From NCBI GenBank assembly GCA_037042915.1, contig CM073194.1, positions 3,782,001 to 3,846,000 on the forward strand: DNA of 64,000 nucleotides, written 5' to 3'. Positions 20,771 to 64,000 of this stretch are shown here, one piece after another. Under the pieces are notes generated by a model. It did not search any database. It saw nothing but the letters and a program-made list of their open reading frames with translations, and was not told the origin of the DNA. The stretch's first letter is position 1. Every line of letters begins with the position of its first letter. A program made the translations under genes and the position numbers. The stretch comes from Auricularia sp. M13. Its lineage: Eukaryota > Basidiomycota > Agaricomycetes > Auriculariales > Auriculariaceae.

Positions 20771-21685
20771 ACTGCGCCAGAATCTTCATCGTAGTTGATG
20801 ATAGCCAACGCCATGTATTGCAGGGCCTCCATGAAAATGATGATTCATCGTGGAGAATGGCTGAGTTAATGATGGGCATCTACCACGAGCCAGCGGAGAC
20901 GGAGGGCTCGGCGCATGGAGACAGAATCGAGGCGCGCCGACGAAGAGTTAGCCTGGGAACTATTTCCCTGCCCAGGCTGGAAGGAAGTTGTAGATTTCAT
21001 TGACAGGAAGGTCATAGCGTCGTACTCATCCGTGAAGGTACTGCTTCGCTGGCCCCGCAGCGTCCGAAGGAACAAGAGATATCGAGACGCAAGCCTCGTA
21101 AAATGTTCGTTGAATCGAAGCAAGCTAGCCGAGGCACTAACGTTGAGTATACAACGCCGCGCGACTGGTGACAGACTCGAAGAGTTGGCCTATGAGGCCA
21201 GCATACACAAGTCCCTGTATCCTCTTGCGAACGGGAGCTGAGCAGGCGCCATGGCGTGCGCAGAACTCAGAGCGTACTTGAGCCCGAGGTAGCCGTTTAG
21301 TGCGCAGCGTGCTGCGCGAATCGTCGAGTCATCGTCCTGTTCGTGAGGAGGAAAAGAATGCACACAAAGCACGCAACTCCGCTTCAAGTTGTCTGCCGCA
21401 TAGACTCAGACCACGACCCGTTTTCGTTCGCTTTCACCAACTCGGGAGCCTCGTGCACTGAGCAGCATAAAACAAGTGGTCAAATCTGCACTACTGGCTC
21501 AGAGCAGGCCGGCTACGCTTTGTAGAGCGGCGAGGGCGCTATGGGAAGGGAGGGATATGCATCCTGTGACTCGAAGCGTAACGAGGAAGGCATGGTGAGT
21601 GGTATCATAGCTAAAAAGAGAACATAAAATGACAAAGAGCGGTTGCATGGGCTGTTTCCCGTAGAGTGTTTGTCGCCGCGTCGGA
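20771..21685. other. Intergenic, one doubtful small ORF
   Basis: An ATG-initiated 108-codon frame at 20915-21241 (+; METESRRADEELAWELFPCP) has no recognisable motif and may be chance. The homology to the second Cys-rich gene copy extends about 70 bases past its stop, here down to about 21610. Confidence 0.3.
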
Positions 21686-22491
21686 CTACTCAGCATCGTC
21701 GTCGGCGTCCTCCTCGAGGTCTCCATCGTACCCATCCTCTCGGGCTACGATGCTCGTCATACCTGGGAAGTATCGAGGCGGATAAGGCGGGTCCTCGACT
21801 TCCCGGGACTATCGAAGCCATCTTCAACAGCTGCACAAGTACGTTGGCAATATGCATTACTTACCAGGCAATATGCCTCGTAGGTCATCGCTGGGGCAAC
21901 GACCTGCTGAGGAACAATCGTCGCGGTCTTGATATAAGTGATTGTTGGGGTGGCCGGCGTGTGCGAGGCGCGCGCGTCGTTGGCGTTCCTGTCATCGGAC
22001 GAATCATCTTCGGCGTCGAGATCGGATACATCGGCGTAGCCTGCCCATCGCGTCGTCAGCGTCGGTGCCCACCCGAACTCCGCTTATATCAGGACTCGAC
22101 GTCTGCTTACCCGCACGCTCGCTCTCGTCGTCCGACCCGGACTCCGAGCTCGACTCCACCACGCTGTTGGACGATACGGGCGCTGCACCAACCGTCAGGC
22201 CTCGATATCAACATCATTCATAGCATGACCAGTACTACTCACAGACACCAGATACCGGCGTATTGCGCGCGCGGGCAGCGCGCAGGAGCGATCGAAACTG
22301 TTCGAAAAGCGCGCTGCAATCGGCGCATTCGCGGATGCACTCCAGGCAGCCGAAGTGGTGTTGCACAAAGGCCAGCACGCAGGTGTTGCACTCTAGGAAG
22401 CACTGCAAGCAGTTGTGGGTGTGCATTGCGCGCGTGGTGGAGAGGAAAGGGCCGGTTCGTGTTGTTTGCAGCTCCGCCGAAGCGCGTTTTA
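21686..22491 (-). pseudogene. Cys-rich gene, copy 1: main part, 3' of a LINE insertion
   Basis: This is an unrecognised host gene. The main exon (about 22491-22225) encodes a Cys cluster (NCLQCFLECNTCVLAF, then CLECIRECADCSALFEQF). The next exons are acidic (SSESGSDDESERAG; DVSDLDAEDDSSDDRNAND). The last (from about 21777) is Pro-rich and acidic (EDPPYPPRYFPG, GYDGDLEEDADDDAE) with stop at 21686-21688. A paralog in the opposite orientation lies at 61407-62294, similar through all exons, splice sites and about 70 bases of 3' flank. The LINE at 22492-30116 has split the first exon after LKRAS; the first ~20 codons now lie at 30117-30200. This copy has no evident ATG at the place where copy 2 has one. 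The Cys spacing suggests metal binding, but no known finger fits. Confidence 0.7.
22477..22491. repeat. 15-bp target site duplication of the LINE, left copy
   Basis: CGAAGCGCGTTTTAA is identical to 30117-30131 after the poly-A tail. The second copy of the host gene has the same sequence once, uninterrupted, around 61480-61495 (inverse). Confidence 0.93.
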
Positions 22492-23090
22492 AGAGCTTCT
22501 TTTCCTTTTCCCATGTCGGTGGCAACTAGGTGCCACCGAATGCCGCCCATGGGAGCGCCGGTCCCGCTGTGCCCGACGAGCACGGTGACGAGGAGGACGC
22601 CTGGGGGAGTGTCCCAGATAACGGTGCAGCATCTGCAGCAAGTATCGTGCAGTATGCCTTCTGTTCTAGGCGCTATTGAGTTATGCGACCTTACGAACTC
22701 GTCTTGCCAGTCCGAGTACGCTGAGCAAAGAAATATACGACCAGAACACACAAATTCCAGGGCTACTGCACGGTTACTAGATGATGCACCTTTGAGATCT
22801 CGCCCGGGCAGACCGTCGCCGCTTGGAAGGCGCAGCGGGTCCGTCGTTCCCAGAAGCGAACGGAATGAGAATATAGAGCCTTTTTCGAGTCACCTCGAGC
22901 TCATAGCGAAAAGCACACACACACGCGATCTTCACAAAAAGAGGAGTATATCCTCCAGAACGAGGCCGGCGATGCCTAAAGCGTGGCACTCGATGCGGCG
23001 TTTCCCGCACCGCCTCCTTTGTTCTACTACGCTCGTACAAAATGCGCGCACGCCACGCGGCGGCGCGCCGATTATCCTTACCCACCGACC

Positions 23091-24464
23091 ATGCCTGACG
23101 AGATGGACACTGCGTCGGGCCCCAACCCGCCCAACCCCACCCAAGAGCAGATCGATAGTGAGGCTCAGAGTCGCAAGCGCGGGCGGGACGACGCTGCTGA
23201 CGAGGACCCAGAGCGCGTCCGAGAGATCCGCGCCATCGTACGCCGCGCGGATAATCGCCACCTTCGCTCGGCGGTCGTGCCGATCCACCTCTCTGAGGAC
23301 GCGCAGCCGCGTACGGCGTTCCACGCTGCGAATTGGAAGTCGGAGAGCCCGCCTTGCGTCATTGCCAGCCTGCCAGACGACGCTATACAACCCTCGAGCC
23401 TCACTCTCGAGGAGCTCGTCTACTACAGCCAGAACGGGAGCACCTGGCTGGACATCCTCAAAGCAGCAGTACAAGACCCGTCCTCGACGACGGGGTACGC
23501 ATGCCTCGTACAACCGCTCAACTGGTACTACGACGAGCGCGACGTCCCGTACACGCGCGCGACCCTGGAGGAAGCACTGCGCCGATATTGCAAGATGGCC
23601 TGCGTCTCCGTCATCGCCCCGCAGAAGCGCGTTGTCGAGCCCCAGACCCAACAGGCCGCGAGCCGCCCGCCGAACGCGCACTGCCCGCCTCATGCATTCC
23701 TTGTCCGCGACATTTCGCTCGAGTGCGTCAATGACCTCGCTTCTAAGTACGCGCACCACGTCTCGTGGCCCGAGAACACGGTCGGCATTTCCTTTACGGT
23801 CTTCCATCCGGACCTGGCGCCTCCAACGCATGTCGGCACCTACAAAAACTTGTTCAACTTCCCGAAGTTCACCGACAATCTTCGCCGTCGCATTCTCGAC
23901 AAGACAAGGCAGCAGATCGCCGAGAATTGGGACAAAATCAAGAACTTCATCATCGTCAACAAGGCAAAAATCTGGGGCGGCGGCGAAATCGAGCCGTGGA
24001 GCCTGCAGCTCGTACAAGCGTCGCTGCGTCTGCATGTGTGGGAAGGCAAGATGCGCGACGGCCTGCCCGAAGTCTCGCTCAGCCTCTACTTCTTGGGCAT
24101 CTTCGATGCCCCCTGGCTTCACTCCGAGTGGGAGAAGACTCTCCTTGGCGACGAGCTCGATCTCGGCGAGTACGGCAAAATCACTCGCTGCACCGGCGCC
24201 GATGTCCCCACTTGCTCCGTGTGTTACGAGCATGACCACCACGCTCGCATCTGCCCCATTTGGAACCATCAAGATTGGCCCGAGCACCTTCGTCGTGAGC
24301 GCGAGCTTAAGATCCAGGCGCAGCGTTTCGCATCAGGCCGCGGCAGCGGATCTCGCGGCGGCGGATCTCGAGGCGGGCGAGGCGGAGCCACTCGAGGAGG
24401 AGCCCCGCGAGGCAGGGGAAGGGGCGGCCGAGGACGGGGCGGCCGCGGCGGCAGGGGAACCTAG
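23091..24464 (+). CDS. LINE ORF1 protein (CCHC knuckle, RGG tail)
   Basis: 457 residues starting MPDEMDTASGPNPP. There is a hydrophilic N-terminus with a basic patch (SRKRGRDD), a mid-domain without recognised fold, and one retroviral-type knuckle CSVCYEHDHHARICP (CX2CX4HX4C) at about residue 375. The tail is rich in Arg-Gly (about residues 410-457). This layout suits an RNA-binding protein that coats the LINE transcript. The ATG at 23091 is preferred to the open frame upstream because that has only non-ATG starts. The stop is 22 bases before the first ATG of ORF2. Confidence 0.88.
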   Translation: MPDEMDTASGPNPPNPTQEQIDSEAQSRKRGRDDAADEDPERVREIRAIVRRADNRHLRSAVVPIHLSEDAQPRTAFHAANWKSESPPCVIASLPDDAIQPSSLTLEELVYYSQNGSTWLDILKAAVQDPSSTTGYACLVQPLNWYYDERDVPYTRATLEEALRRYCKMACVSVIAPQKRVVEPQTQQAASRPPNAHCPPHAFLVRDISLECVNDLASKYAHHVSWPENTVGISFTVFHPDLAPPTHVGTYKNLFNFPKFTDNLRRRILDKTRQQIAENWDKIKNFIIVNKAKIWGGGEIEPWSLQLVQASLRLHVWEGKMRDGLPEVSLSLYFLGIFDAPWLHSEWEKTLLGDELDLGEYGKITRCTGADVPTCSVCYEHDHHARICPIWNHQDWPEHLRRERELKIQAQRFASGRGSGSRGGGSRGGRGGATRGGAPRGRGRGGRGRGGRGGRGT

Positions 24465-24486
24465 AGACGAGTGCAGCGTGAACCCG

Positions 24487-27400
24487 ATGTACAACAAAGA
24501 GCGCACCGCCGCGAGAACCGGTTCTCCCTCTTCCCAGACTTACGAGCCCACGACTAATACTAGTTCTTTGCCTGAGTACGATCTACCAGCCAGTCAGCAG
24601 AGACGCAATCATGGCATAATTAACGACGATGGCGGTGTACTAGAATCGAACCAACGGATACAGAGACACGATCTACTGCCAGAACCACCGCCCGAACCAC
24701 CGCCTGAGCAGAGATCCCGTCCGAGGCGGCGTCAGCGAAGAGGTGACCGGGTCCGCGTCATGCCGCGACGAGGCAGTGATACGCAGCAGCCATTCCTGCG
24801 ACTTCATTTATCGCAATCTGTCTCGGGATTCAAAACCAAGGCGCACCTGCGTGTTGAATCGCAAAATATGCGTGGCAGAGGCCATGCTGGCCACGATATG
24901 AGTAAATGGCGGGAACTGAACAGAGAAATGCGTGAATCGAAGATCAGCATCCTCGCTGTTCAAGAAACTCACTTGTCTGAAGCCGCGATTGACAAGGTGA
25001 ACCGCGATTATCGTGACATCAAGCTGTTCTGTTCCCCGAACCCGGAAAATGACACAGGCCGCGGAGGCGTTGGAGTTGTGTTAAATAAACGTCTCGTGCG
25101 CGCTCAGGAGGCTCAAATGTGGGAAATAGTACCTGGACGAGCGATTGTGGTCAGCATTGACTGGCACAGGAGGCAAAAACTTGCGTTGTTGGCAGTCTAC
25201 GCACCAAACGACCACGGCGAGAACAGAGATTTCTGGGTTCAGATACGAGAGGAACTTCAGCGGCAAACAGACGTACCGAAACCGCACTGCCTCCTTGGAG
25301 ATTTCAACATGGTCGAGTCTGCAAGCGACCGGTTCCCAGCGCGTCTGCTGGATGCAGATATGTCTGCGGAATTTCAAGAGTTGATTGCCTGGCTGGGTAT
25401 GGTCGATGGGTGGCTGGAAACACATCCGCGGACCTTCACGCCGTCGTACCGTGACCCGAATGCGGAGAAATACGCCCGTCTGGATCGGATCTATGTAGCT
25501 GAACACATTTTCATTGCGAGTCGTAACTGGAAAATAGACGGCGTCAGAAACTGGGCAAATTCGGACCACTGGCCGGTTCACGTTGAATTGATCAACCCTG
25601 CAATGCCTTTCGTGGGTAAAGGTCGATGGACAATGAACGTAGGTCACCTGCGCATAAAAGAATTTATCCAGGAAACGATAGCGAGAGGCAAGAAGCTCGA
25701 AGAAGAGGTAGATGCTTTGGCAAATGAGCCACGGAACCCTGAGAGGAATATTCAGCATCTCTGGGCGGAATGGAAAGAGGCGACAAAGGAGAGAGCGCAG
25801 TACTATGCGAGATTACAGGGACAGAAGCGTGAGAGGGTGATGAAGGCCCTGGAGAAGGACAAGCTATCAGTATTGCAACGAGCTGCTGAAGGGGAATTTG
25901 AACGCGAAGACGTCCCTTATGAGATACTCGCACTCGACGACCGCATCGAGGAGCTCAGTAAGAGGCAGCGAAAGAGACGCAAGGAAAGAGCGCTAGCGAA
26001 GCGGTTTGCGTATAATGAAACAAACAGTGGCGAATGGTTCAGATTGGAACGGGACAAGCGACATGCGGACATCATCCCGCACCTGAGAGACACTAGACCG
26101 GAAGGCGAGCGACTACGCGACAGGCGCGAACGAGCAGATGGTGCAAACTTGCCTGACACTGAGCGTTCAACTCAACAGCCAGACCATCAAGACGGTGAAG
26201 CTGACGATGAGCTTGTGCGACGTACCGAGGAGATGGTTGACATTGTGCGTTCGCACCACGCGACACTACAATCGCGCGATATACACCCAGACGCTGGCCA
26301 GCGTGAGGAGAAGATCAATGAGGTGCTGGGATACATTAGAACTCGCCAAGACGCGGACCATAATGGGTTAGACAAGTACCTGTCGGAAGATGTTGTTCAG
26401 CAGACTCTGCGCCATGCTCCCTGCGGCAAAGCCGCGGGTATAGACGGGATGATACATGAGTTATGGAGAGAGTTAGATGCAGAGTTTCGGACGTCCGAGG
26501 AGAAGGGTTTCAATATTGTTCGAATACTCACAAAGGTGTTCCGCGATGTCCAGGAGTACGGACTTGTCGAAGATTCCAACTTTGCGGAGGGCTGGCTCTG
26601 CCCTCTTTATAAAAAGGGAGACCGGGCGGATATCGCTAATTACAGGCCGATTACATTATTGAACACGGATTACAAACTTCTCACGAAAGCTCTCACCAGT
26701 CAACTTGGTGTAATCGCTCCGGCCATGATTAATAAAGCCCAGAGTGGTTTCGTCCAAGGACGCCAAATTACAGACACAACGAAGCTGGTTCGCTTAATGG
26801 TCAGCTATGGTGAGAAAACGGGAAGAAACGGAGCCATATACTCACTCGATCAAGAAAAGGCATACGATAAAGTGATGCATGACTACCTTTTCCGAACTCT
26901 GCGACGTTTCGGGCTGCCGGAGCTTTTTGTCAAGACCGTAGAAAATTTGTACAAGAATGCGCATACTAGAGCAATGTTGAACGGAGTCTTAAGCAAGCCG
27001 TTCCGCGTCACGAGAGGCGTGAGGCAAGGAGATCCTCTGAGTTGCCTTCTATTTGACTTCGCCATAGAACCCTTGTCACTCATGCTCCGAGAATCGGGAG
27101 AGCTAAATGGTTTCTCACTCCCTGGGATGAACGAGGCCCTGATTGCGACTCTATTCGCGGACGACACCACTGTATACTTGTCTGAGAATGACGATTTTGA
27201 AAGTCTGGATAAATTATTACGTACCTGGTGTATTGCCGCTGGTGCAAAGTTCAATGTAGCAAAGACCGAATGCATCCCGATCGGCACACCTGAATTTCGC
27301 GAGCGTTTCAGGCAGGATAGACGAGCACTCGCACACCATCGGCGCTTACCTGAGACTGTTAGAATCGCTGACGATGGCGAAACAGTGCGTATCCTAGGCG

Positions 27401-29895
27401 CGTGGGCAGGAAACGATGCCCGCGACGATGATACCTGGGAGAAAGTGTTCAAGAAGACTGCAGAGAAACTCTTGAAATGGGACGAACGGCATCCATCAAT
27501 GGAGGGTAGACGTCACCTCATCCAGGCATATATTGGCGGTGGCACGCAGTATTTGACTGCTGCTCAAGGAATGCCACCGGATATCCTGAAGAGATTCGTC
27601 AAACTTGAACTCGACTTCTTTTGGGAATATAAGAAGCATACCGTGAACGCGGACACACTGTACCTCCCGCTTGACAAGGGCGGCGCAAACATCCTCGATC
27701 TTGCGACGAGGAATGAAGCCATTTACCTAGTCTGGGCACGCAAATACCTAAAACCGCCCGAGGAGAGGCCAACTTGGGCTTTCGTGGCAGATGAGATATT
27801 CAGACATACGCTCACATTGGAATGGCAAGACAAAATCGGCGAGGATACACATATTCTGACGAATTTTATCATGCAATCTTGGAATCCTATGGAGAGAAGT
27901 CGTCGGACCGTACATGCCAATCACCGCGAAAATGCACAAGCAGGCCTACCACTAGAACTTGAGCTGATGTATAAGGCCATGAAGGACAACGATGTCAGCC
28001 TGCAAGCAACCTTTGTAAGCGAGCAGGCAAGACGTCTCGCGCCTGCGTGGTACAGTGCTGAGCATGATGTGAGCTTCCGGCAGCACCATCGAGGCGACGC
28101 TGTCACTTGCCTGCGTAGAGTTCACCGCGTTATCACAGTCCAAGATGCGATTGATTGCTACGATGACGGTCGTGAGCCCGAATATGATGCCATCGACCAC
28201 GTTCACAGCGGCAATTGCCCGTGTGAGCGATGTGAACGACAGAGGAACTCAGGCTGCGCACATCCTCACCTCTGTCAGGATTTGGCCCGAAACCTCGTGC
28301 AATCGAAACGTGCTAAATGGCGGCCGGGATGGGGAACCGTAGACCGCTCGAACAATCTACAGGAAGAAGATCTGCGGCAAAATGAGCTAGCTGAGCTGTA
28401 CCAAGCGCCTGTTGTCTTCGACGCATCCGCTCCTGAACCTGAACGACCTGAGCACTACATACGAGTATTTACAAAGGAACTTAGCTTCTTCCCAGACTCG
28501 GATGTTCCGGCGAACGGGCATCCACAAGGGACACACACGCAGATCGCACCTCCGGAAAACGAAATCACAGTAACGTGCTGTGGTGTGGTCAGAGCTGCCC
28601 GAAGCCATAGAGCCCGTGCTACGTACGCAGTCCATTGTGCAGAACTAGGCATCAGCGTAGCCAGGAAGGTCGGTGCGGACAGTCCTCAGACACGTGAGCG
28701 CGCCGCGACTCTTGCGATTTTTGACGCAGCAAGCCGTATTCCTCGGGACCGTCCACTCCTTATCAAGACAAATGCTAGGAGAGCGATCACCCGCCTAACC
28801 AATGCTAAAACGAAGTTGGAACTCACCGGCTGGGTAATGTGTGGAGAAAACGCGGATGTGTACAGAGCGACGGCAGCGGTTCTGCGAAGCCGGTCAGCGC
28901 GAACGAGACTCCAATTCGTATGCGAGGAAGACATTGACCAGGACTACGAGCAAGCGTTGAATAGGGCAAAAGAGGCCATGGACGATGAGGCCACGCTGAG
29001 AGCGCCTCTCCTCCGAGCGCCCGCTGCCTTTGACGCGCCAGGGATCCCCCTGGCAAATATATCTCAGCGACTGGCAACGAAAGTAATCAGGAATGCCAAA
29101 TCAGTCAGAACGGACCCACGCACTGCTACGATGGAGAACCTGACGCGCACAAGAAATGACATGGCGAAGCTTTTGAAATATCGGCTCCCTGACGCGAAGA
29201 TCTGGAAAGCCATCCAGCATAGGGACTTTGGGAAGGAAGTACGCACATTCCTCTGGCGAGCCATGCATGGTGCCCATCGCTGCGGACAGTTCCTCGCCAA
29301 TTGGGGCGGGGAGTGGATTGAGAAGTCGAAGTGTAAGGCTTGTGGGGGCGGCCCGACCGAGTCCATAGAGCATATCTTGCTGAGATGCTCCGACCCAGCA
29401 GCGGCGCAAATCTGGAGCCTGGCCGAGGATCTATGGTCGTCATCAGGAAGACCGTGGCCGAAGCTGACGTTCGGCGTTATACTGGGCTGCGGCGCCGCGC
29501 GCTTTACGGACAAGGATGCGAGCGGACGGGACAGAGAAGCGGTCGGCATATCGCGACTGTACCGGATTATCATATCGGAATCGGCTAGGCTGATCTGGAA
29601 ATTGCGATGCGAACGAGTCATTGGCCACGAAGACACTCCAGATTGGCAACATCCTCCAGCCCTCGTCGAGTCGGAGTGGTACCGCGTGATAAATGAGCGG
29701 TTCACGTGCGACCGTCTCCTCACAAACCGCCGAGTATATGGCAAAAGAGCACTACGGAGATCTCTAGTGCTGGCAACTTGGTCCCGTCTAATAGACCTGA
29801 GCACAGTACCTGAGGACTGGCTCACTTGCTCCGGGGTTTTAGTGGGTAGACAGCGTCCGCTGGAGCCCCACACTGCCCGTCACGGGCGTGCGTAA
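24487..29895 (+). CDS. LINE ORF2 polyprotein: APE endonuclease, reverse transcriptase, degenerate RNase H, zinc knuckle
   Basis: About 1,802 residues from the first ATG after ORF1. APE endonuclease (about 125-375): QNMRG, VQETHLSE, GRGGVGVVLN, LLAVYAPN, LLGDFNMVES, RLDRIYVAE, SDHWPVH. Reverse transcriptase (about 640-1000): LYKKGDRADIANYRPITLL, QSGFVQGRQI, SLDQEKAYDKV, GVRQGDPLSCLLF, and the catalytic FADD at about 890. A Cys-rich patch CPCERCERQRNSGC sits near 1240. An RNase H-like stretch (about 1355-1440) has LLIKTNARRAI where the fold normally has a TDS-type catalytic Asp. A C-terminal zinc motif CKACGGGPTESIEHILLRC lies near 1615. ORF2 is in the +1 frame relative to ORF1, and that frame stays open upstream across ORF1 as far as 21643. 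Reinitiation after ORF1 is the simplest mode of expression. Confidence 0.93.
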   Translation: MYNKERTAARTGSPSSQTYEPTTNTSSLPEYDLPASQQRRNHGIINDDGGVLESNQRIQRHDLLPEPPPEPPPEQRSRPRRRQRRGDRVRVMPRRGSDTQQPFLRLHLSQSVSGFKTKAHLRVESQNMRGRGHAGHDMSKWRELNREMRESKISILAVQETHLSEAAIDKVNRDYRDIKLFCSPNPENDTGRGGVGVVLNKRLVRAQEAQMWEIVPGRAIVVSIDWHRRQKLALLAVYAPNDHGENRDFWVQIREELQRQTDVPKPHCLLGDFNMVESASDRFPARLLDADMSAEFQELIAWLGMVDGWLETHPRTFTPSYRDPNAEKYARLDRIYVAEHIFIASRNWKIDGVRNWANSDHWPVHVELINPAMPFVGKGRWTMNVGHLRIKEFIQETIARGKKLEEEVDALANEPRNPERNIQHLWAEWKEATKERAQYYARLQGQKRERVMKALEKDKLSVLQRAAEGEFEREDVPYEILALDDRIEELSKRQRKRRKERALAKRFAYNETNSGEWFRLERDKRHADIIPHLRDTRPEGERLRDRRERADGANLPDTERSTQQPDHQDGEADDELVRRTEEMVDIVRSHHATLQSRDIHPDAGQREEKINEVLGYIRTRQDADHNGLDKYLSEDVVQQTLRHAPCGKAAGIDGMIHELWRELDAEFRTSEEKGFNIVRILTKVFRDVQEYGLVEDSNFAEGWLCPLYKKGDRADIANYRPITLLNTDYKLLTKALTSQLGVIAPAMINKAQSGFVQGRQITDTTKLVRLMVSYGEKTGRNGAIYSLDQEKAYDKVMHDYLFRTLRRFGLPELFVKTVENLYKNAHTRAMLNGVLSKPFRVTRGVRQGDPLSCLLFDFAIEPLSLMLRESGELNGFSLPGMNEALIATLFADDTTVYLSENDDFESLDKLLRTWCIAAGAKFNVAKTECIPIGTPEFRERFRQDRRALAHHRRLPETVRIADDGETVRILGAWAGNDARDDDTWEKVFKKTAEKLLKWDERHPSMEGRRHLIQAYIGGGTQYLTAAQGMPPDILKRFVKLELDFFWEYKKHTVNADTLYLPLDKGGANILDLATRNEAIYLVWARKYLKPPEERPTWAFVADEIFRHTLTLEWQDKIGEDTHILTNFIMQSWNPMERSRRTVHANHRENAQAGLPLELELMYKAMKDNDVSLQATFVSEQARRLAPAWYSAEHDVSFRQHHRGDAVTCLRRVHRVITVQDAIDCYDDGREPEYDAIDHVHSGNCPCERCERQRNSGCAHPHLCQDLARNLVQSKRAKWRPGWGTVDRSNNLQEEDLRQNELAELYQAPVVFDASAPEPERPEHYIRVFTKELSFFPDSDVPANGHPQGTHTQIAPPENEITVTCCGVVRAARSHRARATYAVHCAELGISVARKVGADSPQTRERAATLAIFDAASRIPRDRPLLIKTNARRAITRLTNAKTKLELTGWVMCGENADVYRATAAVLRSRSARTRLQFVCEEDIDQDYEQALNRAKEAMDDEATLRAPLLRAPAAFDAPGIPLANISQRLATKVIRNAKSVRTDPRTATMENLTRTRNDMAKLLKYRLPDAKIWKAIQHRDFGKEVRTFLWRAMHGAHRCGQFLANWGGEWIEKSKCKACGGGPTESIEHILLRCSDPAAAQIWSLAEDLWSSSGRPWPKLTFGVILGCGAARFTDKDASGRDREAVGISRLYRIIISESARLIWKLRCERVIGHEDTPDWQHPPALVESEWYRVINERFTCDRLLTNRRVYGKRALRRSLVLATWSRLIDLSTVPEDWLTCSGVLVGRQRPLEPHTARHGRA

Positions 29896-52077: not shown

Positions 52078-53303
52078 ATGGCCGCTAACGATGATCCTGT
52101 TGTCATCCTAGTAGGCGTCGGGTGCGTTCGTCCGCGCAGAATACTGGAACGACGATAATGCTGACCGGTTGACTTAGAGGCGCAACGTGCAGCGGCAAGA
52201 CAACGCTCGCGAAGCAGCTGCGGCGTATACTGCCAGACAGTGTCATCGTGCACCAGGACGTGCGTCCAGACAGGCCGTGCTCTAGTCGTCGATATTGACG
52301 TTGAAGCGCGAAATTTACCAGGATTTTGCACCAGTGCGCCCGGCGCTGCAGCCACATTTTTGCTGCCAGTCGCTGGATCTGACTCTGCGCTGCTTGCTTC
52401 GTAGCCGCAAGAAACGCTGCCCATCCACCCGGTGTACAACGTGCAGGACTGGGACGACCCGCCCGGCGCGATCGACTGGCCGCGCTTCAGCGCCTTCCTG
52501 CGCACCGTCAAGCGCACCGGCGCCATCCCGCCCGACCACCGCAGCCACGACCACATGAACATCCAGCAGGAGGTCGCCTTCGATAATGAGCGCATCCAGC
52601 GGTGGCGCGAGCGCTTCCACGCCGAAGCCCGCAACGTCAAATGGGTCCTTGTGGACGGATTCTTGCTGTATTGGCTGAAGGTATTTCAGGGACTTGAACC
52701 TTAGATGCGCAACTGCTAAGCTATATTATAGGAAGCTGTCGATACGCTCGACGTGCGCTTTCTCCTGCGCGTTCCGAAGGACGTGCTCGTCCAGCGCCGA
52801 ATAGCCCGCCAGGGGTATTATACAGCAGGTTCGTGTCGTTCACATCCTCTCGTAGACCCATACTGACAAGCTTCAGGTGCGTCCTTCCTTCACGCTCGCC
52901 GCAGCTCTCTCAAAGCTCCTCCTTCCGGTGCTGCTTGCGCCTTTTATCTGTGTGTCCGCCTCCCGATCCCGCGCCGCGTTGCATTCTTGCTGACTCCCCC
53001 GACAATCAAGAACAATCCTCGGCCGCAGAGGGCGAGATGTGGGTCGACCCGCCGTACTACTTCGACGGCATCGTCTACCCGGCCTACGTCAAGGCGCACC
53101 AGCACCTCTTCGAGAACGGCGACGTCGAGCACGGCCAGCTGGTCCCTAACCCCGACGTCGGCAATGTCGTGTTGTTCGACGCGCTGACTATGAGCGCGGA
53201 CGAGCTGCTTGAGCGGGCGTGTGAGCTGCTTTATGAGCACGTCGAAGCGAGATTGGGTAAGGGCGAAGGGAAGGAAGGTCAGGGTGGCGCCCCTGCGCAA
53301 TAG
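52078..53303 (+). CDS. NRK1: Nicotinamide riboside kinase
   Basis: It phosphorylates nicotinamide riboside to NMN in NAD+ salvage. Six in-phase exons, 786 coding bases, 261 residues: 52078-52121, 52178-52259, 52322-52333, 52405-52680, 52732-52828 and 53029-53303. The start reads MAANDDPVVILVGVGGATCS, continuing GKTTLAK as the P-loop. The substrate-binding block HQDDFAPPQE comes next; its DFAP is a 12-nt exon of its own. Then come YNVQDWDDPPGAIDWPRF, WVLVDGFLLY, a lid-like LVQRRIARQGYYTA, and a C-terminal WVDPPYYFDGIVYPAYVKAH. All are typical of fungal NRK1. The stop at 53301-53303 is only 31 bases before the insertion point of the 6.2-kb transposon, which therefore displaces its native 3' UTR. 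Confidence 0.92.
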
Positions 53304-53326: not shown

Positions 53327-53334
53327 CTCGTACC
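53327..53334. repeat. 8-bp target site duplication, left copy
   Basis: CTCGTACC directly precedes the left terminal repeat at 53335 and recurs at 59531-59538. Confidence 0.93.
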
Positions 53335-53352
53335 AGGCCCCCGGCTTATCCC
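53335..53352. repeat. Left terminal inverted repeat
   Basis: AGGCCCCCGGCTTATCCC, an exact inverse of 59513-59530. Confidence 0.93.
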
Positions 53353-53359
53353 GATAAGG

Positions 53360-53475
53360 CCCTCATCCAAAACTCCACACTTCGGGCCCGATTTGGGCGC
53401 CAACCTTGGATCCAAAAGTCCACACCTGGCGCTGCCGCTGGCCGGCAACATTCATCCAAAACTCCACACCACGGC
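53360..53475. repeat. Left subterminal repeat cluster
   Basis: Three copies of a CCAAAA(C/G)TCCACAC motif (near 53367, 53410 and 53457), each preceded by AT. They are probable transposase-binding sites. Confidence 0.75.
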
Positions 53476-53980
53476 ACCAGGCGGCACCACGTTCGAGCAT
53501 TGCGAGTCGGCAGGGTTTGGGTCAGGTGCGTGCTCGGCATCCCACCCCCACGCTGGGCACCTCGGCTATCCATGCACTTACGCATTGTCCGCGCAGATAT
53601 CGTGGTTCACGGGCCATGTAGCAGTGCAGCACTGACGTCGCGCGTCCACGCATCACAATATATTTCATTTCCACTTATTTTGCGTCTGATGAGCCGAAAT
53701 GCACCACGTTTGACTACACCACGTACCAGCGCAATAAAGGGAGCCCGTTACATGATCTTTTGCCAACGCTCTCTGATCCAAAGCGCTTTTCCCCCTGCAC
53801 ATTGCGCAACATGCTCCTTGGTGCCCATCGGCATCCCGCATTCCCGTCATCCGCTATTTGTCGTGCGTGCAGTTTCTGCAATGCTTCTTGCACTATCTAA
53901 TCGGCTCTAGCTTCTCTGCCCAACGCTGGCTTGTCCTTTCTGGAATCCAACTTCGTCAATGGTATGCATATTCATTCCAC

Positions 53981-56900
53981 ATGTTCCGAACGTCGACTGA
54001 CGTTGGTGATGTAGACCTCGTCGGCGGCTCTGCTGTTTCATCTGCACTGCCGTCGCGCGGCCCTCCTCGTTTCGACGAGCTCAAAGCCTCTGCTATAGTT
54101 TGGCTCAACGACATCCTCGCGACTCCAATAGGTCCTCGTGCTGCACTCGCTCGTGATTGTCTTGATATCGTCCAACGTCTCCCTGCCGGTGCTTTTGTCT
54201 CTGGATTTAGCCGCCATGTGTGTCTGACGACAGCTCATCTTCTTGAGTTCCTTGGCACGCATTGGATGCGCGATGAGCAGATCAACGCTGGCTACGAGCT
54301 TCTCCTTCGTGAACTGGGAAATAATCCACGCATTGCGGTCATGCCCTGCTGGCAGCTTGTCATTCTGGATTCATTCCGTTATGGTGTGGATGCCAACGAC
54401 GTTGACCGGGATCCCAATCGCCCCTACAACCCTCAGCGCCCGCGTCCTGGCGACGAGTGCATCGGGACGCTTACTGTAGACAGTGTCGTGGTGCCTGCGC
54501 ATGTTAACGGGAATCACTGGACGCTATTCATTGTGGACCTTCGAGCACGGACCGTCCTGTACCGTGACTCACGGAACACGCTAGCTTCACCTAACCGTCG
54601 CATGCTTTCGAATTTGACTTGGTGGCTGAGCGGCCTGCTTCCTGGTGCGAGCTGGGAGTACATCACCTCTGGTCCCCTCCCGCCTGTGCAGACCGATTCC
54701 CATTCTTGCGGGATCGTTATCTTATCTCACGTTGCGACGCTCTTCATGGGATACCCGCCTTGGACCCAGGAACAATGGCGGGAACACCGTATGGAATGGT
54801 TTATCCGGCTGTCCAAGATCTGGTCTGAAGATAGTATCGTAAGTCACCGCAGACAAGTTTGGATTGGCATGATTACTTACTCTTGACCTGTAGATGTCTG
54901 AGATGGCTGGTGCCATCGCCTCAAGCGAGATTGACGTGCCCATGGACGATTTGAACGATCTCTGCGCATTTGATTGCTCTGATATGACCGACAGCGCCGA
55001 TCTCGACGATTGTCGGCTGGCACCTGACGAGGCGGCCGAGCCGTGCGCGCCCTGGATTGCGCGTCTGCGCGCTCGTCAGGCGTCGGTCGTGCCAGACTCT
55101 GTTTCATCTTCTATGGATGCAGATCCTTCTCCAGACTATGTCCCATGTGGAGAACAGTCCGAGGACGACAGTGACTACGATTCTGATGCTACGGTACGCC
55201 CTGGATCTTCGGCTGCTGGTGCGGCAAAGGCAGCGCCGAAACGACAGTCCAGCTCGCGGCTTCCCGATGCGCCGCCTACGAAGAAACGCAGGCTGAACAC
55301 AAGCACTCATTCTTCGAAGGACAAAGCAAGTGCGCACCATTCGCACAAGCCCAACGCACAGCCGGTCGACCGAAGACTGGCGAAGTTTAGAGACAAGATC
55401 CGTGCTTCTGACCCAGCGGCGGCCTTCCCGCCCGACGATATTCAGTCCGTTCGCTGTGGGCGGTGTCTCGCGACAATCAGGATGCGCCGGCCATACGAGA
55501 CGGACCGCTTCACGCAGCATCGGCGCAGCACGTCATGTCTCTCGAAGGCCAAGGATGGCAGCCAGCCATCTGCTTCCGACGTCTTTCGCGCCTTTCTTGC
55601 TGCTCCCCGCGTTGGTCCCTCCGGCCCGCCAGCGAAGCCCCGTTCTGTGCCTTGTCCTGGACTATCTGCCGCTCGGAATGAACGCATTCGTGTCTACCTA
55701 GCCCGTAGTGCTGCGCCAGGCGGCGGTGCTCCTGCTCGTCACCTCATCGCTCTGAAGCTGTTCTCTGCTACCTGGGCTGACCTTTCGGACAATCAAAAAG
55801 ACACTGTGTGTGTTGCAGAGTCTCATCGGTATTCCTGGACCAACCGGCATGGACTGCAGACTGTATTCTCGACGGCCTGCAAGCAGACTGTCTCCGTACT
55901 CGGAGACGGTGAGCCCGTACCTTGCACTGCTTGCCATGCTCTTCTCTCGCTCAAATCGTTCAAGAACGCGCTTGCTCACCCAACACCACTCGCTAAGGAT
56001 CTTAAGTTCGTTCCAGCTGCTTATCGGCAACCTGAGATTGGCAATCTCTACATGCGCTTCCATGGACTGTCCGAACTCGTCGACAAGAATCTCACAAACG
56101 AAGCTCAGGTCTTGCACGATTTTTCTGCCGGCGTTCTCAGCGGTCGCTACAAGGACTGCGACGTTCTTCTCGGAGCGATTCAGGCGACTGTGATGAAGAA
56201 GAAGCGCGACGAGCGTGGAAAGGGTCTACAGAATATGCAGTATTCACCAGCCTTCGACAACGCTGGCATGGCTATTCGCGGCATCTCTCAGCGCGCATAT
56301 CAGGTCTGGTTAACTGTTTTCGGAGGACGTTCTGTTCGCAGCATTCGAGCGGTGCACGCAAAGTCCCTCAAGTTTGTGCCGGGTATCGACCGCGCTAATG
56401 TCTCTGCTGCCGCCGACGTTCTTGCATCCTATAACTACACCGGCCCTCTGATCCTTGCCTGGGATGATACCAAGCTCGAGCCGACTCTCCGCGAGATCTG
56501 TGTCGGTGCTGGCGTCTGGGTCGTCGTCGGCCAGGCTGGAGATCCTGTTTATGTTAAAGATCAAGCTTCACTCGAGGCTCTGCTTTCTGACAATGAGACT
56601 GAACTGGCGGATAAGGTATGTGGATGCACCTCCAGCTCAGTAGTAGCTCGCGCTAACCTTTCCACCTTCTAGCTGAGACTCTGGGTCTTGATTGTACCAG
56701 TACCGACAGTCCCACCGATCATCGTTGCTTCACAGTCGCGCGGCTCATCAGTCTCGGCGGCTGAGCTTTTCGGTGCGCATTGTCAACTTGAGCGGCTCCT
56801 CCACGAGCACAACCTGTTCCCAATTGCCTATGCGGCTGATGGGACTGAGACGGAACGGAAGCTCCAGCGTCAGATATCGGAACGATACAGCTCGACTGCG

Positions 56901-59334
56901 CGTACATATATCATTCCGAACGACCAGCCTGGCTGTGAACTCCGGCTGGTAGTACCTCTGGTGCACGGCAGACCTCTCGTCATGGCACAGGACTCAAAGC
57001 ACAGCTTGAAAACGGCTCGGAACCAATTGTTTTCGGGTGCTCGTATCCTCTCTCTCGGTACCGGTGCAATATTCTATTCCCTCATCCGCGACCTCGCCAA
57101 TCATCCCAGCTCGCCACTGTTCCGCCGTGATGTCGAGAATGTTGACAAGCAGGATGATCCTGCCGCTTCGCGTCTCTTCTCTTCCGAAACCCTGCAACTA
57201 CAGACTACACGGTTCCCGCAACGCCTTTCTGTGACGCTGTACCTGTACTTCGTTGGTGGTCTTTTCGATGCGTGGCAGAACCGTCAACTCGGGCACGGTG
57301 TCCGTATCCTTCTCGCCCTTCGATGCCGCTTCTTCCTCCAGGCATGGCGAGCGCATGTCGTTGCGCATCCGGAACACACTCTCGGGAAGAACTACATTTC
57401 CCGCGAATCCGACGACATCTTCCGCACCGTGTGCGAGAGTCTCATCTCGCTCATAATTTCTTACCGCGACTACTATCCTGCCGCACCGTTCCTACCCTGG
57501 GTACACACAACCGAGCCTGGAGAGCATGTTTTCGGCGTCACAAGGTTCCTCAAGGACAACTTCAACTACGCCGATTTTCTCCACTTGGTACCCAAGCTCT
57601 GCGCCTTCCTCATGGGGAGCTTTGCCTCCGTAAAGACGCAGGACCGTGCAAATATTACAGCGTCGGGATACTGGCATACCTGGGCGGATACACGCGATCT
57701 AGATGTCGCAGCCCTTAGTACGTGGCCATCCGATGCACAGCTTGCGATTCTGTCGCGGAATGCATTCGCGGACGTGAAGTTGATCCTGCGATCTGTCGGT
57801 ATCAAGGCAGAGCGTCTCATGGCGCTGTCACGAGATGTGAAGCCTGCCCAGGTACAAGCTGCATTTGCAGGCAATGCTGTTGCAGTACCGAGGCAGGCGA
57901 AGGCTCCTACTGTGCAACGTCGGGAGCAGCCCAAGCGTAAAGCGAAGACGCTGGGTAGATTCTCTGGCGGGCTCCTCTATGAATGGCTCGAGAAGGACCG
58001 CTTCTCGTCCATGTCCGAGATGGTTGCGGAGCGCGAGCGGCTTGGGATCGACGACCCAGGTCTTGACCAGCAGCTTGATGCAACAGCAGCTGCGTATGCG
58101 GCAGCAGACTTGCATGCGACGGATAAAATGTGAGTGAATTACTTGGAACATTGTGTAAGAAACTCACTCAAAGTGATTAGAATGACGCTTCCTGACACGG
58201 AGGACGATCATGTCGCATCCAACGCCGCGACAATCAAGGAATTTGCAGCTCCTTCCGTCTCGACGTCGGTGAGATGCTCTGTCTGGTTCAACAATGTTTC
58301 CGCTAACGTATCCAGGGCGAATGCTTTGTTCCAGAGCCTCTTTTCGCCGAGGGCGAGAAGTTCAGCCTGGGGAAGTTGGTATCTGAGCGCCGCGCATACC
58401 AGAACCATTTCACAAGCCACGCAATTCGCAAAGGGACTCAGAAATTAGGAAAGTTCGAGACAAGTCAATCGGAGAAGGCCCTCACGAAACGGCTCAAGGA
58501 AAAGTTTGGTGAGCTCATGGCAAAGGCTGGAACGACAAAGGGAGCCGGCTACACACGCAAACTGCGTTGGACGGGCAGCATCCAGCCTGATGAAGCGAAG
58601 GCAACGCTGGCGCTCAGTAAGCGCATTGAGGTAATGAGTCTATGCTTTTTAACCCCGCGATTTAACTGATTCACTGTGCAGAAATATACGAAGGCCCGTC
58701 GCAAGGCATTTTCGCCATTACTGAAGCTTCATCCGCACATGGACACGGGGAACGTTAGCTCGATTCTGCCGCTCTCACTTGCCGCGACCGACCAGCCGTG
58801 CTATGTGGCAATATGGACGACTGCAACGCCTGGCCGAGTTGCGTTTGGCGAAGGTCAGTCTCAATTTCGGTGGGCCCGCGGACTAGTTGCTGAAGGCAAC
58901 TTGCTCTAGTTCGTGCGGTGTATACATCAAGCAGTGGCCGTCATGCCTCCCTCGACAAGGTTGACAGTCTTGGAGCAATCTCGTATCTGACAGTTCAAGT
59001 CTACACTCGGCAGTCAACATCGTCATTTACAAGCATTGGCACAACTCTCACAACAGCAACGTACGCGCACGTTCCGCCAACCAACGTACTATTTGTGTTT
59101 TCTCGGTTCAAGATCATTCGGACGGAGATCGAGAACGACTCGCTTGTCAATCTCACTCTCAGTTCGGCAGCTTCCTCGCTTTTGGAAGAGCTCGAGGACT
59201 CGGACGTGCAGAAGTGTGTCACCAACTTCCGAAAGAGTCTTCGCAATGCTCCTGTGCCTGCAGACAAAAAGGAAGTTTCTGAACCAGAGGATGACTTCTT
59301 TGAGGTCGACAGTGACGACAATAATGTAGAATAG
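53981..59334 (+). CDS. Ulp1-like protease/transposase fusion protein of the transposon
   Basis: Seven exons chain in phase: 53981-54838, 54894-56615, 56673-58129, 58181-58268, 58316-58630, 58682-58853 and 58910-59334, about 1,678 residues without a stop. Residues 1-286 hold a C48/Ulp1-like domain: GNHWTLFIVD (His179), LYRDS (Asp196) and QTDSHSCGIV (Cys243 plus the oxyanion Gln). An acidic region, a basic nuclear signal (PTKKRRLN) and a C2HC-like finger (CGRCLATI..HRRSTSC, about 472-500) follow. The transposase part has LILAWDDTKL (Asp810), IAYAADGTETERKL (Asp916), QDSKHSLKTARNQLFSGARI (Asp967) and EPGEHVFGVTRF (Glu1144). These resemble the DDE and DxxHxxKxxRN signatures of P-element/THAP9 enzymes. 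The ATG at 53981 is the first in frame, but a 5' intron (GTATGC near 53962 to TAG at about 54014) could move the start. Confidence 0.85.
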
Positions 59335-59429
59335 AGTGTTTTCTGTACTTTCGGCCGTATATAGCTGCGCCGCACGGACTTTTTTTCTGCAGACGGACTT
59401 ACCGGCGATAGCCGGAAACTTCCGATCTT

Positions 59430-59490
59430 TCATCCAAAACTCCACACCTGGCGCCGGATTTGGTGATTTTGGTACTCCACACCTGGGCGA
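59430..59490. repeat. Right subterminal repeat cluster
   Basis: One full CCAAAACTCCACACCTGG copy near 59437 and a partial TACTCCACACCTGG near 59473, in the same orientation as the left-end copies. Confidence 0.7.
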
Positions 59491-59512
59491 CCTTCTGGAT
59501 GAGGGCTCAGAT

Positions 59513-59530
59513 GGGATAAGCCGGGGGCCT
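59513..59530. repeat. Right terminal inverted repeat
   Basis: GGGATAAGCCGGGGGCCT, the inverse of 53335-53352. Confidence 0.93.
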
Positions 59531-59538
59531 CTCGTACC
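59531..59538. repeat. 8-bp target site duplication, right copy
   Basis: CTCGTACC, identical to 53327-53334. Confidence 0.93.
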
Positions 59539-61406: not shown

Positions 61407-62294
61407 ATGCTGAGCGCAGGCAGGTGTTCTATGTGCACAATTCATCCGGAAACGGATGGAAAGTGCTGTGGATCCGGCGGGTTAAAACGCGCTTCGGTGG
61501 AGCTGCAAACGCCACGAACCGTTCCCTTTCACTCCACCACGCGCCCATACAGACGCAGATTTTCTTGAATTACTTCCTTGACTGCGCCGCCTGCGTTTCT
61601 GCCTATGTGAACTACCACATCTGCTGCATGGAGTGCGCCCGCGAATGCGCCGCGCTTTTCGAACAGTTTCGATCGCTCCTGCGCGCTGTCCGCATGCAAA
61701 ATCCGCCAGTGTCCGGTGACCGTAAGTAGCCCGAGATGCCGTAATCGATATCAATTCCTAAACGGTTTGTGCAGCACCGGTGTACGAAGAATCGAGAGAC
61801 AGCGTGGTGTGGTCGAGCTCGCAGTCGGACGACGAGAGCGATCGTGCAGGTTAGCGGACGTCGAGTCTTGATATAAGCGGCGTTGGGGTGAGCGCTGACG
61901 CTGACGACGCGATGAGCAGGCTACGCCGACGTATCTGACCTCGACGCCGAAGATGATTCGTCCGATGACAGGAACGCCAACGACGCGCGCGCCTCGCACA
62001 CGCCGGCCACCCCAACAACCGTTTACCTCAGTACCGCGGCGACCGCTCCTCAGCATGCCACCACCCCTAGGGACCCCAGCGATGAGCTATGCGCCCTACC
62101 GCCTGGTGAGTACTGCATGTTTTCAACGTACTTGTAGTTGTGCATGTGCTGAACATAACTTCAATAGATATTCGAGGTTGAGAGCCCTAAGTATCCGCCT
62201 CGATGCTTCCCTGGGGCTCAATCCCGTTGAGGCCCGGGAAGACGGGTACGACGGAGACATCGAGGAGAAGGTCGCCGACGGCGTTGCTCAGTAG
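61407..62294 (+). pseudogene. Cys-rich gene, copy 2 (frameshifted)
   Basis: It is a paralog of the gene split by the LINE (21686-22491 plus 30117-30200). It has an ATG (MLSAGRCSMCTIHP) and the same exon layout: 61407-61721, 61775-61849, 61920-62105 and a last exon from about 62168 to 62294. Compared with copy 1, single-base length differences shift the frame near 61548 (before FLDCAACVSAYV), near 62070 and near 62213. The conserved blocks (CCMECARECAALFEQF, DVSDLDAEDDSSDDRNAND, ESPKYPPRCFPG, DGYDGDIEEK) therefore do not all lie in one frame. It is probably no longer translated as a whole. Splice donors and acceptors are kept, so decay is recent. Confidence 0.65.
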
Positions 62295-64000
62295 TCGCCG
62301 ACGCAGCGACGAACAGTCACGGGAAATGACCCATCGAACTGCAATACCTATGTCTCATTATGTTCTCTTCCTTAGAGCTTCCCCGTTACGCTGCGAGCCA
62401 CAAAATGAATGTTCCTTTGTCCCCATTCCACAGCGTCTTTTACCGCTCTCTTGAGCTCAGCCCGCCAGTTGCGAGGCCGAAATATAGAATTTCGTTCGTC
62501 GTGGAGGCTGATGTCAACGGGATGGGTGGCTCGAGTCTGTAGAAGATAACGGATACGTGGTACGATGACAAGCGGAGTTGCGTGCTCTGCTCCTCTTCCT
62601 CCTCAATATACAACGATCCGCGTAACATGCCGCTTGCCGAACGGCTGCCTAATCTTACACTCCACGTGCTGCTCGTGCATCCTCAGGCTACAGCGTGACG
62701 CTTTCAGCTCCTCCAGCTTGCTACCAGTCGCATCGAAGCTGGCCAAATGAACGGCGCTCTAACTTGTGACACTACCTTTCGACAATCCGTGTGCAACCAT
62801 GTTTCGGATGCGATTCAGCGACGTCAGGCTCAGGCAAAGTCGCGCCCTGCCTCGATGTGGTCGTTTTTCTGTGCTCCAAATGTGTCTGAACGCACCTCCA
62901 ATTTATGATGCCCAGCATTCGTCTCGACGGGTTATTATCGGCTCGTTCTTTCGGTTTGGATATGGGCGACCTGGTGGACGCGCCTCGATCCAGGCAGCTT
63001 GAACGATACGGAAGAGGCTGCCCACGTCATTGTCCAAGAGCGCGAGTGGTAAAACATGCCGGCCTGCAGCACGCACATTGTCCCGAGAGCAAATAGTGCA
63101 CTCCAGAGGCCATCGCGCGATGTAGGACAGGCGCTGCGGGTGTTATTGAGCGCGAACGGATCGGTCAAGAGAAGCTCTGTTGACCCCCGGGTCGGCGACA
63201 GCGGCTGAACCCCATTTCGGAGGACTTCACAGACGGCGGTATACGAGAGCATACCAGCTGACCGTCCAGTGTCACTGTGAGTCCTCACCGTGCATGCATA
63301 TATTCGAACAGCATCCAGGTCAGCGCTCTATGCTTAGTCCGGTTCAATCCGCGCCGGTCCCATAGGCCTTCGCGGTTCGGGGGCAAACCTTAAGAACGCG
63401 ACGCGACGCGGCGAGCAGAGGCATCGAATAAAAGTCGCATTGTCAGCCTATGGCGTACATGGCGGACCCTGATGTCAACTGGACCCTCGAGAGACATTAG
63501 ACTGTGAACAGATGCGAAAACCGGTGTCTGTTTCAAGTGGCCATGGGCCTGCCACCAGCGGGCTTTTGGCCCTACTGTGGTCTGCGCAACAACTCAGAAA
63601 ATGGCCAAAAGATCTCATAGATAGTATTGGCACGATTAAGACCTCCAGCATATCTACTGGTGTCGTGCCAGAGCCTGGATGGTCGACGACCTTGGGCTTT
63701 CTATACGCGCAGCTTCTAACGCATGAACATATACGAGGGCTTTGAAATTTCCTCCTCCTGGCTAGTGAAAGGACCTTCACCGAGTAATAGAGGAGTTCTC
63801 GCGGACGTAGAGTAAGACTGTGCAGACGGGCAGGTGTTGGGGACATTTTCGGCAATGATGACGCTCTTCCAGCGGGAAAAAGCAGCATGCAATTTTTGCT
63901 TGAATTATCATGATTTAATGTCTATCTCCCAGGTTGCTCCTTGTAGTTGAAATTGAGATATTGACGTTCATGGCCGGCCCAGCGCGCCCGCGTTCGAATA
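62295..64000. other. Region without a confident gene
   Basis: Minus-strand segments look mildly protein-like (about 62760-62630, LASFDATGSKLEELKASRCS; and about 62465-62405, AELKRAVKDAVEWGQRNIHF). I could not chain them into a phased gene or a known family. A host gene fragment is possible. Confidence 0.3.

Follow-up and report, generated by a model that had tools for sequence, protein, structure and literature searches.

The excerpts of the literature cited here describe P-type transposases and THAP9 in animals and give the THAP domain as animal-only (PMC7776569). P and hAT elements both leave target-site duplications (TSDs) of about 8 bp (PMC3706591), and zebrafish Pdre2, of the P superfamily, combines 13-bp terminal inverted repeats (TIRs), inverted subterminal repeats and an 8-bp TSD (PMC10983969). 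Ulp1 domains are already known in transposons, being present in Mutator and Ginger1, for which the role of Ulp1 and OTU domains in transposons has been raised as a question (PMC2836005). Here, we analysed a 6,196-bp element at 53335-59530 of a 64,000-nucleotide (nt) stretch of contig CM073194.1 from Auricularia sp. M13; this whole stretch is called the window, and all coordinates are counted from its first letter. We read the element as an autonomous fungal cut-and-paste transposon whose one gene encodes a DDE transposase with a P-like core and an N-terminal Ulp1 protease, and we put the probability of this reading at about 0.6.

The element is bounded by the following features:
53327-53334, no strand: left TSD, CTCGTACC, identical to 59531-59538
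53335-53352, plus strand: left TIR, AGGCCCCCGGCTTATCCC, 18/18 perfect, the start of a 38-nt arm (53335-53372) at 82%
59513-59530, minus strand: right TIR, exact reverse complement of AGGCCCCCGGCTTATCCC, 18/18 perfect
59531-59538, no strand: right TSD, CTCGTACC, identical to 53327-53334

The original prediction had described an undamaged DNA transposon with perfect 18-bp TIRs and exact 8-bp duplications. Both were verified at 53327-53352 and 59513-59538, and the undamaged state is supported by these ends and by the open gene model given below. The duplication is exactly 8 bp long and directly abuts both ends, and the TIR arms continue to 38 nt at 82% identity. At up to three mismatches the 18-mer end has only two matches in the 64 kb, against 0.03 expected. 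Given its base composition, the window should hold about 0.013 perfect inverted pairs of 18 bp spaced no more than 10 kb apart, and the chance probability of the abutting 8-bp duplication is 1.8e-5; the ends and the TSD are therefore not a product of chance. An 8-bp TSD with short TIRs is what P elements show, though it is not exclusive to them. Together with the general biology of P- and hAT-type elements, the TSD and TIRs point to cut-and-paste transposition, with insertion by what would be an 8-bp staggered cut. An open frame at 52698-53303 (plus strand) stops 31 bp before the left end, and the element was inserted just downstream of it.

Subterminal repeats lie near both ends:
53365-53381, plus strand: subterminal repeat ATCCAAAACTCCACACT, one mismatch
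53410-53426, plus strand: subterminal repeat ATCCAAAAGTCCACACC, one mismatch
53454-53470, plus strand: subterminal repeat ATCCAAAACTCCACACC
59432-59448, plus strand: subterminal repeat ATCCAAAACTCCACACC, oriented as at the left end
59475-59486, plus strand: half subterminal repeat CTCCACACCTGG

These are five copies, four full-length and one half. All four full copies of ATCCAAAACTCCACACC in the window fall inside the element, whereas the 64 kb would be expected to hold 0.11. The 12-mer half repeat has eight matches in the window, five of them in the two subterminal regions; for the entire window 5.15 are expected, and 16 of 100 shuffles gave at least eight. In our reading, the transposase would bind these repeats, pair the two 18-bp ends and excise the element.

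The gene between these ends was modelled as follows:
53981-54838, plus strand: exon 1, Ulp1/Peptidase_C48 (Pfam stretch 54263-54805) with H179, D196, Q237 and C243; start codon uncertain
54839-54893, plus strand: predicted intron 1, GTAAGT..TGTAG, 55 nt, joining the Ulp1 and transposase frames
54894-56615, plus strand: exon 2, acidic/basic linker and the region before the catalytic core; no significant Pfam match
55455-55538: CxxC-H-C finger-like stretch in exon 2, with a second CxxC from 55923
56463-56465: putative first catalytic Asp in exon 2, D810
56673-58129, plus strand: exon 3, with D916 (56838), DxxHxxKxxRN with D967 (56991), S1030 (57180), FD with D1059 (57267) and E1144 (57522)
58181-58268, plus strand: exon 4, no Pfam match
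58316-58630, plus strand: exon 5, no Pfam match
58682-58853, plus strand: exon 6, no Pfam match
58854-58909: intron before exon 7, weakly supported
58910-59334, plus strand: exon 7, stop TAG at 59332-59334; no Pfam match

As had been claimed, the seven exons join in phase; the predicted model spans more than 5 kb and gives 1,678 codons with the sole stop at the end, and the motifs quoted earlier (GNHW..D..QTDSHSCG, AWDD, AADGTE and GEHVFG) are present in the predicted protein. Codon use of three neighbouring open reading frames favours the chosen frame over the other two in 7/7 exons. The six predicted introns are 47-57 nt long and of the GT..AG type; introns 5 and 6 have weak donors (GTAATG and GTCAGT), and intron 6 is without a branch-like motif. 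Translation may start at ATG 53981, or at ATG 53811 with two extra small introns. The element may still be active.

Exon 1 matched Pfam PF02902 (Peptidase_C48) with an E-value of 2.8e-8 and 34.3 bits, above the gathering cut-off of 20.7. In a search of the Protein Data Bank (PDB), the domain found 48 sequences at E-values of at most 1, led by SENP3 and two NopD-type effector proteases; SENP1 and yeast Ulp1 stood lower in the list. H179 and D196 were paired with SENP3 residues in the alignment, in support of the claimed Ulp1 domain with its catalytic pattern. Q237 and C243 were located by the string QTDSHSCG; we take them to be catalytic, presumably at the spacing of yeast Ulp1. Designed armadillo-repeat proteins, which reached similar PDB scores partly with a different stretch of the query, were set aside as spurious, and an AlphaFold model of the domain made without an alignment was unusable (pLDDT 39.8).

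At the transpososome, the protease would most likely strip SUMO, or a modifier akin to it, from the transposase itself or from host silencing or repair proteins. The paper on Ginger elements suggests that repair factors may be activated by Ulp1-type domains while the element transposes (PMC2836005). Freeing the transposase or silencing proteins from SUMO would be an equal option.

Whether protease and transposase form one chain turns on intron 1. When it is kept, the Ulp1 frame stops at TGA 54884-54886, 7 nt before the ATG at 54894 that opens exon 2 and the transposase frame. This closeness of stop and start would suit two genes, one for a Ulp1 protein ending at that TGA and another for a transposase starting at 54894. 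We consider that arrangement unlikely: intron 1 begins with the donor GTAAGT, contains CTTAC as a branch-like motif at -18 and is about as long as the other five introns, its removal brings two different frames into phase, and bicistronic mRNAs are rare in fungi. A one-chain protease-transposase fusion is thus likely, resting on one predicted 55-nt intron. Of the claim that a single gene joins Ulp1 and transposase, the in-phase open model stands, and the fusion hangs on that intron. In the P element, intron retention decides whether repressor or transposase is made; a possible counterpart here is retention of intron 1, which could yield the protease alone instead of the fusion.

To place the transposase core, we used an ordered-anchor test, in which six published functional residues of Drosophila P (D230, D303, D339, S409, D444 and E531, from the excerpts of PMC8230255 and PMC7776569), each with a few neighbours on either side (their number is the half-width), were searched as a chain along the full 1,678 amino acids, and distances were allowed to differ by up to 60% from the P values. 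At half-widths 5-7 the best chain fell on D810, D916, D967, S1030, D1059 and E1144, with six of six identities, which none of 400 shuffles gave. Its scores of 85, 78 and 74 at half-widths 5, 6 and 7 were reached by 5, 19 and 38 of the 400 shuffles, respectively (5 and 16 of 400 at half-widths 5 and 6 in an earlier run). When 300 sets of six anchors were drawn at random from P, six identities never occurred at half-widths 5 and 6, one set gave at least five at each of these, and the real score was reached by 0 sets at half-width 5 and 12 at half-width 6. The spacings D810-D916-D967-D1059-E1144 are 106/51/92/85, and the matching spacings are 73/36/105/87 in Drosophila P and 70/40/105/94 in human THAP9 (residue numbers from the excerpts of PMC8230255).

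In direct alignments made with two aligners, the second Asp, DxxHxxKxxRN and KQ..LFS..T lined up with P. When five P windows were scored singly, the K400-S409 window was reached by 3/300 shuffles and the D(2)H window by 11/300, although the best position of the latter was at residue 79 and so not at the expected site; the remaining three windows scored at chance. The insertion domain of P binds GTP via D528, K385, K400, V401, S409, F443, D444 and N447 (excerpts of PMC7776569). S409, F443 and D444 have identical counterparts in the element protein, D528 is replaced by Glu, N447 is one residue off and K385 has no placed counterpart. If the core is derived from P, its use of GTP may have changed. 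The core would be expected to adopt an RNase H fold, interrupted by an insertion that follows the DxxH motif and precedes the final Glu. A single-sequence AlphaFold model placed D916 after a short strand and E1144 at the start of a helix, which is RNase H-like, and was given no weight.

Several observations weigh against a P-like core. S409 was chosen from eight GTP contacts after its match in the alignment had been seen, and the P-like chain is mostly lost because of its removal: with the remaining five anchors the chain falls elsewhere at half-widths 4-6, with 1-2 of 5 identities. At half-width 7 the reduced set recovers D810, D916, D967 and E1144 with D1108 in place of D1059; its 5/5 identities occurred in 0/300 shuffles and its score in 109/300. 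The catalytic three with D339 alone also fall elsewhere at half-widths 4-6 and give 3/4 identities at 7. Even the six-anchor chain depends on half-width, as it gives 5/6 identities at half-width 8 (score reached by 65/400 shuffles) and 4/6 at half-width 4, and lies elsewhere at half-width 3. Without D230, shuffles equalled the five-anchor score in 2 of 300 cases at half-width 5, 14 at half-width 6 and 45 at half-width 8, and at these half-widths the protein of a LINE in the window scored 65, 68 and 56 versus 72, 66 and 58 for the element. Without both D230 and S409, Z was 2.83, -0.03 and -0.21 at half-widths 4, 5 and 6; only E1144 fell on the expected residue at half-width 4, and the chains fell on the expected residues at 5 and 6. 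The anchor test was run without a second P protein as positive control.

The same tendency came from outside the anchor test. Alignment with Drosophila P scored 35, which was reached by 165/500 shuffles, and a second aligner gave an E-value of 0.31. The element protein matched none of the TNP-like models PF21787, PF21788 and PF21789, all of which Drosophila P transposase matched as a control in the same Pfam search. P residues K400 and V401 correspond to Asp and Asp. The AlphaFold model of the core was unusable at pLDDT 35.5, and this model and that of the Ulp1 domain (39.8) were too poor for a fold search. All five subterminal repeats point in the same direction at both ends. They are therefore unlike mirror-image transposase sites and may also be regulatory. 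Finally, the element is single-copy in the 64-kb window, where no second copy of it or of its ends was found.

Exons 2-7, searched by exon and in sub-fragments, gave no significant Pfam match, with the P and KDZ models included, in line with the claimed absence from Pfam transposase models. The few Pfam rows below an E-value of 10 outside exon 1 were noise (0.16-0.3). HMMER filters drop most matches above an E-value of about 0.1, so this negative is no proof of absence. PF18758 (KDZ) was in the Pfam set, and the presence of hAT, MULE, Plavaka and THAP models in it was assumed; on this basis neither a THAP domain nor a hAT dimerisation domain was matched. With exon 3 as query, phmmer retrieved no transposase from the PDB.

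KDZ (Kyakuja-Dileera-Zisupton) is a known fungal group with 8-bp TSDs, reported in the excerpts for Zisupton and Cryptococcus KDZ1 (PMC12730594, PMC12810828), and it shares with the element a large fungal transposase. Membership in it is highly improbable: PF18758 was not among the matches of the element protein, there was no CxC domain match, and the element is 6.2 kb long with 18-bp TIRs, versus 9-11 kb, TIRs of 139-241 bp and a CxC1 domain in Cryptococcus KDZ elements (PMC12810828). The original prediction had placed Ulp1 domains in some Mutator-like elements and in Zisupton/KDZ elements; the former agrees with the excerpts of PMC2836005, which add Ginger1, and for the latter we found no support in the excerpts consulted.

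The core might instead come from elsewhere among the DDE superfamilies that carry a C/DxxH motif, be it hAT, MuDR, Kolobok, Dada or a new, unnamed one, and its P likeness would then be due to shared motifs and chance. C/DxxH is common to five superfamilies in the excerpts of PMC9587614 and PMC3706591, hAT elements also make 8-bp TSDs, removing S409 makes the P anchor test fail at most half-widths, and the P profiles are without a match. Anchors from Hermes, the solved hAT transposase (D, D, CxxH, RW and E), failed on the element protein, with Z from -1.29 to 0.15 at scattered places in a run that had no hAT positive control; nor did this method detect P with Hermes anchors or Hermes with P anchors (Z 0.26 and 0.06). 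There was also no significant Pfam transposase match, and KxxRN after DxxH as well as EHxFGxxR occur in Drosophila P too. We regard such an origin as possible, if rather doubtful. The anchors give weak to moderate evidence for a P-like core, stronger than that for hAT.

Of the earlier P/THAP9-like assignment, the order of the acidic motifs as in P held in the six-anchor chain, as did the failure of the Hermes anchors, and P profiles and significance of the alignment did not support it. Taken together, the element reads as a DDE-type cut-and-paste transposon that is P-like by motif order; we do not assign it to the P superfamily, since searches with the P profiles and for a THAP domain gave no match.

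Searches for relatives covered collections that held no eukaryotes. Among viral contigs, protein searches found 1, 0, 8 and 1 stretches that fitted the peptide pattern, of which tblastn bore out none; searches there by degenerate motif gave 1, 0 and 0 matches, and a motif search of genome contigs gave five. The six loci were rejected as due to chance, since in them the element protein reached a tblastn E-value of 4.2 at best. The failure to find relatives is uninformative, because no collection searched was eukaryotic. The family may already be named in Repbase or the literature, a serious possibility that we hold at somewhat less than even. Similar strings presumably occur in many unnamed Agaricomycete proteins, so the family may be large. 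Speaking against an existing name, no P-like or Ulp1-bearing fungal transposon was named in titles or abstract openings among the literature matches listed.

Elsewhere in the window, an open frame of 2,755 codons from stop to stop at 21628-29892 (plus strand), with Exo_endo_phos, reverse transcriptase and zf-RVT matches, is an apparently intact LINE-type retrotransposon with an unmatched N-terminus of about 1,000 residues. Its 5' part (21616-22492, plus strand) is 75% identical over 0.9 kb, inverted, to 61482-62369 (minus strand), a diverged second LINE copy or fragment. Two frames at 6470-10775 (minus strand) match a Nup98-Nup96 nucleoporin (Pfam Nucleoporin2 with FG repeats; Nup96), an ordinary host gene by which the window is eukaryotic. 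A gene fragment of glycosyl hydrolase family 92 lies at 11994-13088 (minus strand), and two short direct duplications were seen at 38642-38738/40222-40318 (78% identical) and 20040-20108/20376-20444 (83% identical).

Reading the locus as a transposon with a P-like core and an N-terminal Ulp1 protease, we compared it with the systems it most resembles. Mutator and Ginger1 are also DNA transposons bearing a C48/Ulp1 domain, in Ginger1 on the transposase itself (excerpts of PMC2836005). Mutator differs in having its own transposase, and Ginger1 in having a Gypsy-type integrase core with a C-terminal Ulp1, whereas the Ulp1 domain here is N-terminal of the P-like core. If the reading holds, a deSUMOylase and a P-like transposase would share one chain, so that the role of such a protease could be tested by one cysteine mutation, and a fungal branch could be added to the P group.

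The P superfamily (Drosophila P, THAP9 and Pdre2) is set apart by several features. The element has no Pfam TNP-like or THAP match and does not keep K400/V401, its subterminal repeats are direct and not inverted, its D1-D2 stretch is longer (106 versus 70-87), and it has an extra N-terminal Ulp1 domain and a fungal host, to which the small introns and the genes of the window also point. A fuller scenario, in which a new fungal P-type lineage lost THAP, captured a SUMO protease and gained an intron-1 switch between protease and fusion, is improbable as a whole. The element may nevertheless be an unnamed branch of the P group, with a transposase that matches no catalogued Pfam family, and its mode of action is probably that of a P-type element. 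It shares with the superfamily the 8-bp TSD, short TIRs with subterminal repeats and, as far as the anchor placement holds, the D-D-D(2)H-E order at approximate spacing and residues like S409, F443 and D444, and with Drosophila P also the KxxRN after DxxH and the EHxFGxxR string.

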